From the NCBI GenBank assembly GCA_022565265.1, contig JAIUNA010000003.1, positions 1 through 34,494 on the forward strand: a stretch of DNA of 34,494 bases. Reading direction: 5' to 3'. Numbering within the stretch: position 1 is the first letter of the stretch; each line of letters begins with the position of its first letter. Under the pieces are notes generated by a model. That model saw only the letters and a list, made by a program, of their open reading frames with translations, was not told the origin of the DNA and did no database searches. This stretch comes from Roseinatronobacter sp. GTDB lineage: Bacteria > Pseudomonadota > Alphaproteobacteria > Rhodobacterales > Rhodobacteraceae. Shown in pieces: positions 18,723-22,699 of this stretch. A program made the position numbers and the translations under genes.

Positions 18723-18898
18723 TGGCGGCTCCTTTGGTCAGTGGCTTGGCGGAAGTGGCCACATTACCCAAGCGATGGCGTGGCGGCAAGGGCGGGTGAA
18801 GTGATCGCTGCGGCGCGGGTTCGGCTTGATATTTCCCCATGCCCGCCGTAGAGACGCGCAAATCCGATCCGAAATCCGATCCGAACGGAGACGCGCCC

Positions 18899-20074
18899 AT
18901 GTCTGCCCAAACCTCTAAACCCACTGCCTGCCTTGCGCTTGCCGATGGGACGATCTTTTATGGCCGCGGCTTTGGGGCCACGGGGGAAACGGTGGCAGAG
19001 TTGTGCTTCAACACCGCCATGACCGGCTATCAGGAAATCATGACCGACCCGTCCTATGCGGGCCAGATTGTGACATTCACCTTTCCCCATATCGGCAATG
19101 TCGGGGTGAATGCCGATGATGATGAAACCGCACAGCCGGTTGCGGCCGGGATGGTGGTGAAATGGGATCCCACCGTGCCCTCGAATTGGCGCGCACCCGA
19201 GGATCTGCTCACCTGGCTGCAAAAGCGCGGGCGCATTTGCATTGGCGGGCTGGATACGCGCCGCCTGACCCGCGCCATACGCCAGCAGGGCGCGCCGCAT
19301 GTGGCGCTTGCCCATAACCCGGATGGGAAATTTGATATCGAGGCGATGGTTGCCAAGGCGCGTGCATGGTCGGGGCTGGTGGGGCTGGATCTGGCGCGCG
19401 ATGTCACCTGCGCGCAAAGCTACCGCTGGGACGAAATGCGCTGGGCATGGCCAGAAGGGTATACGCGCCAGAATGCGCCCGTGCATAAAGTGGTGGCGAT
19501 TGATTACGGCGCAAAGCGCAATATCCTGCGCTGCCTTGCATCGGCTGGCTGTGATGTGACTGTGCTACCCGCTTCGGCCACAGCCGAGGATGTGCTGGCG
19601 CTCAACCCCGACGGGGTGTTTTTGTCCAATGGCCCCGGCGATCCGGCAGCAACAGGCCAGTATGCGGTGCCCATGATCCGCGAGGTGTTGCAGGCCGATT
19701 TGCCCGTTTTCGGCATCTGCCTTGGGCATCAGATGCTGGCGCTGGCTTTGGGGGCGCAAACGATCAAGATGAATCACGGCCATCATGGCGCGAATCACCC
19801 TGTCAAAGATCATGAAACAGGCAAGGTTGAGATCACGGCCATGAACCACGGCTTTGCCGTGGACAGCCAGACCCTGCCCGCAGGGGTGATAGAGACGCAT
19901 AGCTCGCTTTTTGATGGGTCGAATTGCGGCATCCGTATGCAGGATCGTCCTGTTTTCTCGGTGCAACACCACCCCGAAGCCAGCCCCGGCCCGCAAGACA
20001 GTTTCTATCTGTTCGAGCGTTTTGCAGCCTCCATGGCCGCACGCAAAACGGCCTGCTCCGCGCTGACCCTTTAA
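18899..20074 (+). CDS. carA: Carbamoyl-phosphate synthase small subunit
   Basis: CLALADGTIFYGRGFGATGETVAELCFNTAMTGYQEIMTDPSYAGQIV; GICLGHQMLALALGA; HHPEASPGPQDS. Start MSAQ chosen for its GGAG RBS. Confidence 0.95.
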   Translation: MSAQTSKPTACLALADGTIFYGRGFGATGETVAELCFNTAMTGYQEIMTDPSYAGQIVTFTFPHIGNVGVNADDDETAQPVAAGMVVKWDPTVPSNWRAPEDLLTWLQKRGRICIGGLDTRRLTRAIRQQGAPHVALAHNPDGKFDIEAMVAKARAWSGLVGLDLARDVTCAQSYRWDEMRWAWPEGYTRQNAPVHKVVAIDYGAKRNILRCLASAGCDVTVLPASATAEDVLALNPDGVFLSNGPGDPAATGQYAVPMIREVLQADLPVFGICLGHQMLALALGAQTIKMNHGHHGANHPVKDHETGKVEITAMNHGFAVDSQTLPAGVIETHSSLFDGSNCGIRMQDRPVFSVQHHPEASPGPQDSFYLFERFAASMAARKTACSALTL

Positions 20075-20135: not shown

Positions 20136-22043
20136 GTGGGGTTTGCGGCATCGCTTGCATATGCGCAATTGGCGCCGGGTAGCGATCAATCTGCGCCACG
20201 GCAAAGGCCTCTGGGCCAGATATTGCTGGATATGGGCGTGCTGCGCGAGGATGATTTGTTGCGCGCGCTTCAGGTTCAGGCGCAGCAGGCGGGGTTTCTG
20301 GGCGATATATTGGTTGCGCATGGCCTGATCACTCAGTTGCAACTGACAGAAGCGCTGGCGCTGCAATTTGGTACAACGGCACTGACATTGGCGCAGGGCG
20401 AGTTGCCAGACCCTGCGCTGATTGATCGGCTGGGCCTGAATACCTGCCTGCGCCTGTCATGCCTGCCATGGCGGCAGGCGGGCGGGGTAACTGTTATTGC
20501 CACTGCGCGCCCTGCCGAGTTTCTGAACGCCCGCGCGCAGTTGGAAGGGTGTTTCGGCCCGGTAGCGCTGGCATTGCTAAGCGAGCAGGATTTGCACGCC
20601 GCAATTTTGAAAACGCGCCGCAACCGGTTGAAGCTCTGGGCAGAAACCTGCGTGGCCGAGAATGAGAGCTGTCGGCGCATGCAATCGCGCGGCTTTGGCA
20701 ATCTGCTGGCATTGGCCTGTGTCATATTGGCATTTCTGGCCTTGATCGCGCCAGTGGCAACCTTGTTGGCACTTACCGGCAGTGCTGTGTTTTTCCTCTG
20801 CCTGTCCACCATGCTGAAAACCGCCGCCGCAATTGCCGCCCATCGGCATAGGCCAGCCGCGCGCCCAAGCCCGACTTTGGTGCAGCGCGCGCAGAAACAG
20901 CCCATCGTTTCGGTGCTTGTGCCACTCTATAAAGAGCCGCGAGTTGTTCCCCGACTGATCAATCGGCTTGCGCGCCTGACATGGCCGCCCGAATTGCTGG
21001 ATATCCTGCTGGTGGTGGAGGAACATGACCACGCCACCCGCGCCGCACTTGAGGTACATGATATGCCGCGCTGGATGCGGGTGATCGTGGTGCCTGATGC
21101 TCCGCTGAAAACCAAACCGCGCGCACTGAATTACGCCATGCTGTTCGCACGCGGCACGATCATTGGCGTGTATGATGCCGAAGATGCCCCCGATCCCGAT
21201 CAGTTGCACCGGGTTGTGCGCTGTTTTCACGAGGGGCCGGAAACTCTGGCCTGTGTGCAAGGGGTGCTGGATTTCTACAATGCGCGCACAAATTGGCTCT
21301 CGCGCTGTTTTGCCATCGAATATGCGACATGGTTTCGCATTATCCTTCCGGGGATGCAGCGTTTGGGCTTGGCCGTGCCTTTGGGCGGCACAACGCTATT
21401 TTTCCGGCGCGAGATATTGGAAGCGCTGGGGGGCTGGGATGCCCATAATGTGACCGAAGATGCCGATCTGGGCATTCGCCTTGCGCGCCATGGCTATTAC
21501 ACCCAGCTACTGGATACCGTGACGCAGGAAGAAGCGAATTGCCGCGCGCTTCCCTGGGTCAAGCAACGGTCGCGCTGGTTGAAGGGCTATGCGGTGACAT
21601 GGCTGGTGCATATGCGCAATCCGCTGCATTTGTGGCGGCAACTGGGGACATGGCGGTTTTTCGGGGTGCAGGTGCTGTTTCTGGGTACATTGGTGCAATT
21701 CATGCTGGCGCCATTGCTCTGGACATTCTGGCTTATGCTGCTGGGCTTTGGCCATCCTTTGCAAGACAGTCTGGGGGGCGGGGTGCTACTGGGCTTTATG
21801 GGGGTATTTGTGCTGTCAGAGGCAGTGACGCTGACAGTGGGCTATCTGGCGCTGCGCGCGCCAGAGCATCGCTTCTTGCGCCTGTGGCTGCCAAGCCTGC
21901 ATGGCTATTTCCCTCTTGCTGTGCTGGCGGTGTATAAGGCCCTGTGGGAATTGATCCGCGCGCCGTTTTATTGGGACAAGACCGCGCATGGTGATCATGG
22001 GGCGGCCTGTGATGCGTTGCAGGTCGCGCGCCCGGTTTTATGA
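20136..22043 (+). CDS. Family 2 glycosyltransferase (membrane, QxxRW type) with N-terminal MshEN/GspE_N-like domain
   Basis: GTG start with AGGGGG RBS; tandem LGQILLDMGVLREDDLLRALQVQ / LGDILVAHGLITQLQLTEALALQ; GT2 motifs VYDAEDAPD, VTEDADLG, QRSRWLKG; TM helices. Confidence 0.9.
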   Translation: MGFAASLAYAQLAPGSDQSAPRQRPLGQILLDMGVLREDDLLRALQVQAQQAGFLGDILVAHGLITQLQLTEALALQFGTTALTLAQGELPDPALIDRLGLNTCLRLSCLPWRQAGGVTVIATARPAEFLNARAQLEGCFGPVALALLSEQDLHAAILKTRRNRLKLWAETCVAENESCRRMQSRGFGNLLALACVILAFLALIAPVATLLALTGSAVFFLCLSTMLKTAAAIAAHRHRPAARPSPTLVQRAQKQPIVSVLVPLYKEPRVVPRLINRLARLTWPPELLDILLVVEEHDHATRAALEVHDMPRWMRVIVVPDAPLKTKPRALNYAMLFARGTIIGVYDAEDAPDPDQLHRVVRCFHEGPETLACVQGVLDFYNARTNWLSRCFAIEYATWFRIILPGMQRLGLAVPLGGTTLFFRREILEALGGWDAHNVTEDADLGIRLARHGYYTQLLDTVTQEEANCRALPWVKQRSRWLKGYAVTWLVHMRNPLHLWRQLGTWRFFGVQVLFLGTLVQFMLAPLLWTFWLMLLGFGHPLQDSLGGGVLLGFMGVFVLSEAVTLTVGYLALRAPEHRFLRLWLPSLHGYFPLAVLAVYKALWELIRAPFYWDKTAHGDHGAACDALQVARPVL

Positions 22044-22108: not shown

Positions 22109-22699
22109 ATGCTCTATTTTCACAAGCGGGGGCTTGTTTTTCTGGCTACACCCAAAGCGGGCAGCAGCGCCATTGAAAAAGCCTTGTCTGCACAGGCCGA
22201 TATTGTTTTTCAGGGCGATCCCAACCTGAAACATTGCACCTTTCAGCGCTATAAATGGCGGGTTGAAAAGGCGATACTGATGTTCACCGATACCCCGCCG
22301 CAGACAATGGCCCTTATCCGCCAACCCGAAGACTGGTTGGGAAGCTGGTTTCGCTTCCGCCACGGCGCATGGCTTAATGGCACGGCCCGCAGCACGCGCG
22401 GGCTAAGCTTTGATCAATTTGTGGAAGGCTATCTCGCCAATCCTCAACCCGCCTTTGCCGCTGTGGGGCGCCAAGGGCGATTCTTGATAAACCCGGCCAC
22501 GGATACAACCGTGGACAGGCTGTTCCAGTATGAGGCCATGCCCGCAGTAACTGCTTGGCTCTCTGCGCGGCTGGGCCAGCCGGTGGCGCTGGGGCTGCAC
22601 AATGTTTCACCCGATTGGCCCATCACCCTATCTGCAGAGTTGCGTCGCCGCCTGGAGCAGCAACTGGCCGAAGATTACGCTCTTCATGCGCGCGCCTAG
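22109..22699 (+). CDS. Sulfotransferase-like (P-loop PAPS-binding fold) protein
   Basis: N-terminal FLATPKAGSSAIEKAL resembles a 5'-PSB loop; about 196 aa. Confidence 0.6.
   Translation: MLYFHKRGLVFLATPKAGSSAIEKALSAQADIVFQGDPNLKHCTFQRYKWRVEKAILMFTDTPPQTMALIRQPEDWLGSWFRFRHGAWLNGTARSTRGLSFDQFVEGYLANPQPAFAAVGRQGRFLINPATDTTVDRLFQYEAMPAVTAWLSARLGQPVALGLHNVSPDWPITLSAELRRRLEQQLAEDYALHARA

Follow-up and report, generated by a model that had tools for sequence, protein, structure and literature searches.

A carA-linked membrane glycosyltransferase of Rhodobacteraceae with an N-terminal MshEN domain and a probable arginine-free c-di-GMP site

The window analyzed herein is a 34,494-nucleotide stretch of DNA from Roseinatronobacter sp. 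(Rhodobacteraceae; assembly GCA_022565265.1, contig JAIUNA010000003.1, positions 1 to 34,494, forward strand). The gene under study is located at 20136..22043 on the + strand. It is a real open reading frame with a GTG start and encodes a 635-aa protein, in which an MshEN domain is followed by two transmembrane (TM) helices, a GT2 domain, and a C-terminal TM region. The neighbors of the gene in the window are carA (18839..20074, +; assigned by Pfam), which is the conserved upstream neighbor, and a small sulfotransferase-like ORF (22109..22699, +), which is the downstream neighbor in the window's genus. Both are described as context, and carA is not regarded as a part of the system. The leader before the MshEN domain (20136-20207) varies within the genus. 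The window protein and that of G007 start at GTG and lack a PLLELVV-RK-type segment; most genus orthologs start at an upstream ATG and carry such a segment in the N-terminal leader.

The N-terminal part was matched by curated MshEN models. MshEN_N (residues 25-77; 20208..20366, +), a predicted c-di-GMP module of 53 residues, was matched by the NCBIfam model NF053729 (MshE-related c-di-GMP motif) with 45.1 bits (cutoff 38; 6.2e-12). The MshEN_C subdomain (residues 88-158; 20397..20609, +) was matched by the Pfam model PF05157 (MshEN) with 33.9 bits (cutoff 23.1; 3.2e-8), and AF2 gives it an alpha/beta fold. When the N-terminal part alone was compared with PilF via phmmer, the value was 2.5e-25. 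A profile search of the window's genome returned a single PF05157 match. The same genome encodes 3 GGDEF proteins.

Two 23-residue units had been noticed in the preliminary description of this DNA, and both are confirmed, the first at residues 26-48 and the second at 55-77; their starts lie 29 residues apart. With one preceding residue each, they become motif I (PLGQILLDMGVLREDDLLRALQVQ, residues 25-48; 20208..20279, +) and motif II (FLGDILVAHGLITQLQLTEALALQ, residues 54-77; 20295..20366, +), and the resulting register of 24 + 5 + 24 is exactly that of MshE (PMC5013675). The two units share 9 of 23 residues, whereas the best repeat after shuffling of the protein has on average 8.9 identities, about as many. 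The repeat was therefore dropped as stand-alone evidence; it is significant because of the profile matches and the fold, not because of raw identity. Between the window protein and its nearest ortholog, the one pair compared, dN/dS was 0.11 in MshEN_N versus 0.70 in the leader before it. In this pair, MshEN_N is thus under purifying selection.

A full-length AF2 model was built on 66 Rhodobacterales sequences, with a pLDDT of 89.3 and a pTM of 0.89. MshEN_N is predicted as a four-helix bundle (residues 26-32, 38-50, 55-61, and 67-77), followed by the alpha/beta subdomain to residue 147, a helix at 150-171, membrane helices at 184-237, the GT domain, and membrane helices at 505-608. The N-terminal domain modelled by itself reached a pLDDT of 93.7. 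When this model was compared with known structures by Foldseek, the best match was MshE bound to c-di-GMP (5htl_B; 1.7e-9, TM 0.77/0.83, rmsd 2.3 A). The next match was PilF GSPII-B with c-di-GMP, and the non-binding XpsE ranked below. Similarly, the whole model matched E. coli BcsA (9b8v; 3.6e-13), R. sphaeroides BcsA with c-di-GMP (4p00; 1.0e-12), and hyaluronan synthases, and the archaeal mannosyltransferase PcManGT (6yv7) was also among the structural matches. The identity of the protein as MshEN plus GT2 is thus borne out by curated profiles and by structure.

The membrane-flanked GT2 domain and its motifs are positioned as described earlier, with two TM helices before the domain (residues 184-204 and 206-237; 20685..20846, +; hydropathy and AF2 helices) and about three after it (residues ~505-608; 21648..21959, +; AF2 and hydropathy). 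Pfam places GT2 at residues 256-536 (PF13641, 5.5e-26; PF13632, 6.8e-26), and the catalytic domain is annotated at residues 256-483 (20901..21584, +), with both BcsA and hyaluronan synthase as Foldseek matches. Among the 66 Rhodobacterales sequences, the DxD-type motif DAED (residues 347-350; 21174..21185, +) is found in 65, the remaining one reading DVED, and both TED (residues 440-442; 21453..21461, +) and the QxxRW motif QRSRW (residues 477-481; 21564..21578, +) are found in 66/66. These motifs, together with the synthase fold and the flanking helices, are features of processive GT2 polysaccharide synthases. None of the named synthase models of NCBIfam reached its cutoff: CelA TIGR03030, the model for BcsA, scored 53.8 bits versus 699.1, and TIGR03937, for PgaC/IcaA, scored 60.8 bits versus 422.3. 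PgaC and CelA ranked above the NfrB-type GT models for the GT domain. The Pfam model PF13506 (GT21) gave a weak score on the window protein.

The strict MshEN consensus, with an Arg at the first position of both motifs, is not found in the window protein. Pro25, with Arg24 just before it, and Phe54 stand at these positions instead. The window protein keeps each of the ten other contact positions (L26, G27, L41, L45, Q48, L55, G56, L70, L74, and Q77). The full set of ten is retained in 20 of the 22 genus sequences, and both Gln residues in 22/22. An MshEN domain that combines Pro and Phe at the two first positions has, to our knowledge, no exact precedent. In MshE, an Arg is located at the start of each motif (PMC5013675). 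E. coli NfrB binds c-di-GMP with a Kd of 1.0 uM (PMC8669469); it has the string RPLGQILL at motif I, eight residues identical to those of the window protein, and an Arg where the motif-I Gln stands. Since NfrB is a binder with the same RPLG, a Pro at the first position is compatible with binding. PilF GSPII-B binds with a KD of 6 nM and has Lys and Leu at its two first positions, with no arginines, the Leu (Leu196) being the equivalent of Phe54 in motif II. The authors of that work proposed that very high affinity is to be expected where the first residue is large and hydrophobic. In PilF GSPII-C, one motif begins with Pro, and the domain binds c-di-GMP about as well as MshE (PMC11731258). These three examples indicate that binding does not depend on an Arg at the first position of both motifs. 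The earlier caution about the arginines is therefore upheld in part: the Arg is indeed displaced in one motif and absent in the other, but the worry about binding is mostly answered by the RPLG of NfrB and by GSPII-B. Judged from the amino acid sequence, an arginine-free c-di-GMP site in the window protein is probable.

Distribution of the gene was determined within the genus and the family. A full-length ortholog was found in 21 of 23 same-genus genomes, and the gene was matched in 182 of 199 family genomes (~198 genera; a few hits are weak and could be to other GT2s). Of 80 loci taken from other genomes, most of them named Rhodobacterales, 73 have carA beside the gene and 71 have yqeY in the neighborhood, the usual order being yqeY(-), carA(+), GT(+), gntR(-), HAD(+). 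The window's genus departs from this order: its gntR and HAD genes are located elsewhere, and the small sulfotransferase-like ORF comes next. The near-universal presence in the family and the conserved carA linkage indicate a vertically inherited core gene of Rhodobacteraceae that comes immediately after carA and does not belong to an EPS island. The Rhodobacterales loci showed no export partner next to it. The R. capsulatus GTA-receptor gene rcc01081 was considered as an ortholog and dropped, since it is placed in a strain-variable capsule cluster (PMC10218006).

Several single records deserve mention. The synthase frame has an early stop in the Aliiruegeria lutimaris and Acidimangrovimonas sediminis records (L050, L078), from either a pseudogene or a sequencing error. 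Two loci from MAGs titled Anaerolineae and Sphingomonadales (L102, L048) show the typical Rhodobacterales yqeY-carA-GT-gntR order and are probably misbinned or mislabelled contigs. The ORF at 22109-22699 carries an N-terminal PKAGSSA motif typical of sulfotransferases; no family of Pfam or NCBIfam scored above its cutoff. Nearly all same-genus loci, as well as L032-L034, have this ORF after the synthase gene, and an ORF of this type was not seen adjoining the synthase gene in other Rhodobacterales loci. Modification of the synthase product by this ORF is possible.

Co-occurrence with c-di-GMP synthesis was also compared. The gene was absent in 11/11 family genomes without GGDEF and in 6 of 188 GGDEF-positive genomes. 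Large Rhodobacteraceae genomes with no detectable GGDEF domain, such as G053, G068, G142, and G149, lack the gene too, and in the polA tree the GGDEF-less genomes are scattered over several places. A neighboring HAD-hydrolase gene, used as the control, was missing (E > 1e-20) from at least 7 of the 11 GGDEF-less genomes and probably from 9, the latter figure counting G204 and G207, which are in neither the present nor the missing list. Because this HAD gene is unrelated to c-di-GMP and is likewise missing, the association is not specific, and it was dropped as support.

The sensor is more variable than the enzyme across Rhodobacterales. Among 66 sequences, all ten c-di-GMP contacts are intact in 15, nine of ten in 27, and fewer in 24. 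The commonest contact change is motif-I Gln to Arg, which is also the state of NfrB. No recognizable MshEN motif was found in the Octadecabacter (L094) and Marivivens (L105) orthologs, where the GT domain is kept; these two are natural sensor-less variants. Since the sensor is often imperfect while the catalytic motifs are invariant, the enzyme is evidently able to work without it. This pattern indicates that c-di-GMP control is not universal, and it may have been lost in some lineages.

Homologs outside the family were compared similarly. Of 26 homologs examined in other families of the class, 15 have the same order, an N-terminal MshEN and then GT2. A related GT2 clade without an MshEN-like N-terminus, which the preliminary description had named as evidence against its reading, does exist elsewhere in the class, but not in the window's own lineage. 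A GT tree for which NfrB served as outgroup, and whose root is unsure, needs at least three changes of MshEN presence or absence. Rooting of this tree with NfrB was given up, as the NfrB branch is too long (9.8). The changes fit an old fusion lost several times and, with the root unsure, are no proof of it.

The neighbors of these distant homologs are informative. A BcsB-like gene precedes the GT gene in 3 of 10 other-family loci, with a membrane protein after it, and PF03170 is over cutoff in two. An outer-membrane-barrel-like gene adjoins the GT gene or lies within its cluster in 3 of the 10 loci, and in a fourth (G027) by profile. These neighbors tie the family to polysaccharide synthesis and export. 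In L179, L180, and L183, from three families, the MshEN-GT2 gene is located between a gene for a BcsB-like secreted protein and one for a conserved multi-TM protein that matches no Pfam family, apparently an uncharacterized synthase operon. The barrel-like protein, of about 270 aa, is encoded near MshEN-GT2 homologs in L181 (weak PF13557), L183, L186, and G027 (C7:1895-2659; L190), and is a candidate export channel. Profile searches of the window-genus genomes covered found no BcsB-like homolog, with a profile of three sequences and no positive control, and no outer-membrane-barrel-like homolog. The synthase fold and the BcsB-like and barrel-like neighbors of distant homologs support the reading of an exopolysaccharide synthase. 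The membrane enzyme probably builds a cell-surface sugar polymer, and we infer from sequence and model that this exopolysaccharide may be under c-di-GMP control.

Taken together, the protein is likely an inner-membrane processive GT2 synthase of the BcsA/hyaluronan-synthase fold with a predicted cytoplasmic N-terminal MshEN c-di-GMP receptor. The observation in the preliminary description is confirmed, and its interpretation is largely right. In the proposed mechanism, one c-di-GMP would bind across both 24-residue motifs, with its bases stacking against two leucine clusters, Leu26/70/74 and Leu41/45/55. Pro25 (with Arg24) and Phe54 would cap the site in place of arginine, and Gln48 and Gln77 would hold the ligand. 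Binding would then reorient the MshEN subdomains, a ligand-induced shift of the kind observed in PilF (PMC11731258). The helix at 150-171 and the adjacent TM pair would pass this change on and release (gate) the GT domain, so that a conserved envelope polysaccharide or exopolysaccharide would be made when c-di-GMP is high.

Other explanations were weighed against this proposed synthase with a c-di-GMP receptor. The MshEN fold could be a structural or protein-protein module whose c-di-GMP binding was lost in this lineage, leaving the GT constitutive or otherwise regulated. Both arginines are replaced, motif residues degrade in many Rhodobacterales orthologs while the GT is retained, and XpsE and PilF GSPII-A are precedents for non-binding MshEN folds (PMC5013675, PMC12002112). 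However, both Gln residues are replaced in GSPII-A, where changing them was part of restored binding (PMC12002112), and the Gln, Gly, and Leu contacts are nearly invariant in the window's genus. The low dN/dS of MshEN_N and the binding by NfrB and GSPII-B despite comparable first-position substitutions further argue against a lost site, which is considered unlikely. It is about equally improbable that the GT2 is a c-di-GMP-controlled enzyme of a different kind, namely a non-processive, lipid-directed or capping GT for a conserved envelope glycolipid. A polymer synthase is favored by the cellulose and hyaluronan synthases at the top of the structural matches, by the strict invariance of TED and QRSRW, and by the BcsB-like and barrel-like neighbors of distant homologs. 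On the side of the glycolipid enzyme are the near-universal, carA-linked single gene outside EPS clusters in Rhodobacterales, the GT21 and PcManGT matches, and the QxxRW motif, which is not exclusive to processive enzymes and is found in ceramide-glucosyltransferase-type GTs too.

The protein could also be an NfrB ortholog with rearranged order that makes the same ManNAc-based N4-receptor-type glycan. GT2 and MshEN are fused in both proteins, and the MshEN segment is close to that of NfrB (NCBIfam NfrB model 1e-14; RPLGQILL). The resemblance does not extend to the GT domain, which has 24% identity to that of NfrB and, as a family profile, barely scores NfrB (13 bits versus 55 for the MshEN profile). 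The reversed domain order, the higher NCBIfam rank of PgaC and CelA, and the neighborhood, in which nfrA/ybcH/wecB linkage was not seen when neighbors were compared by homology to window genes alone, make this origin very improbable. A broader and more tentative proposal is a carA-linked, c-di-GMP-gated synthase of an undescribed conserved surface glycan, near-universal in Rhodobacteraceae, whose receptor in this genus would be arginine-free, with Pro and a large hydrophobic residue replacing the arginines, and may bind unusually tightly.

MshEN-glycosyltransferase fusions were noted already in 2016 (PMC5013675), and NfrB was described in 2021 (PMC8669469, PMC8669472). In the open-access literature searched, no paper specific to the N-terminal MshEN-GT2 family was found, and no description of the N-terminal order, the near-universal carA-linked Rhodobacteraceae gene, or the BcsB-like link. 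Known c-di-GMP-controlled synthases have PilZ (BcsA), C-terminal MshEN (NfrB), or BgsA-type domains. The N-terminal MshEN of this family is a further arrangement, widespread among Alphaproteobacteria and nearly universal in Rhodobacteraceae. If the proposal is true, the order gains a shared c-di-GMP output that can be tested in tractable strains (Rhodobacter, Paracoccus, Ruegeria). The range of sensors from intact to degenerate, with constant catalytic motifs, is a natural series for finding which MshEN residues matter.

Among the known systems, NfrB is the N4 glycan receptor synthase, and control of glycan synthesis by its MshEN is backed by genetics (PMC8669469, PMC8669472). Like the window protein, it is a membrane GT2 with DxD/TED/QxxRW motifs fused to MshEN, with an identical RPLGQILL in motif I. 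In NfrB, however, MshEN is C-terminal and is followed by a further motif-like repeat; here the order is MshEN and then GT2, which confirms the N-terminal placement claimed earlier. The NfrB equivalog NF008411 scored 53.9 bits versus a cutoff of 1170. Because of this failed score, the 24% GT identity, and the reversed order, the parallel to NfrB is one of working principle and not of membership.

V. cholerae MshE (PMC5013675, 5htl), the best structural match, shares the 24+5+24 register and the four-helix bundle with an alpha/beta subdomain, but it is a pilus ATPase, and the window protein has Pro and Phe where MshE has the arginines of motifs I and II. T. thermophilus PilF GSPII-B (PMC11731258, 8pdk) has a similar fold and binds c-di-GMP without arginine; it differs as a traffic ATPase domain whose motif I starts with Lys and whose motif II is one residue shorter. 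BcsA (4p00, 9b8v), a synthase controlled by c-di-GMP, shares the processive GT2 fold, the N- and C-terminal TM helices, and, with some distant relatives of the window protein, the BcsB-like partner. No bcs-type gene was recognized beside the window gene, and the c-di-GMP sensor of BcsA is a C-terminal PilZ, whereas the window protein has an N-terminal MshEN. Similarly, S. meliloti BgsA is an alphaproteobacterial GT activated by c-di-GMP, but it is related to cellulose synthases and is described as having its own novel c-di-GMP-binding domain, not MshEN (PMC5567048).
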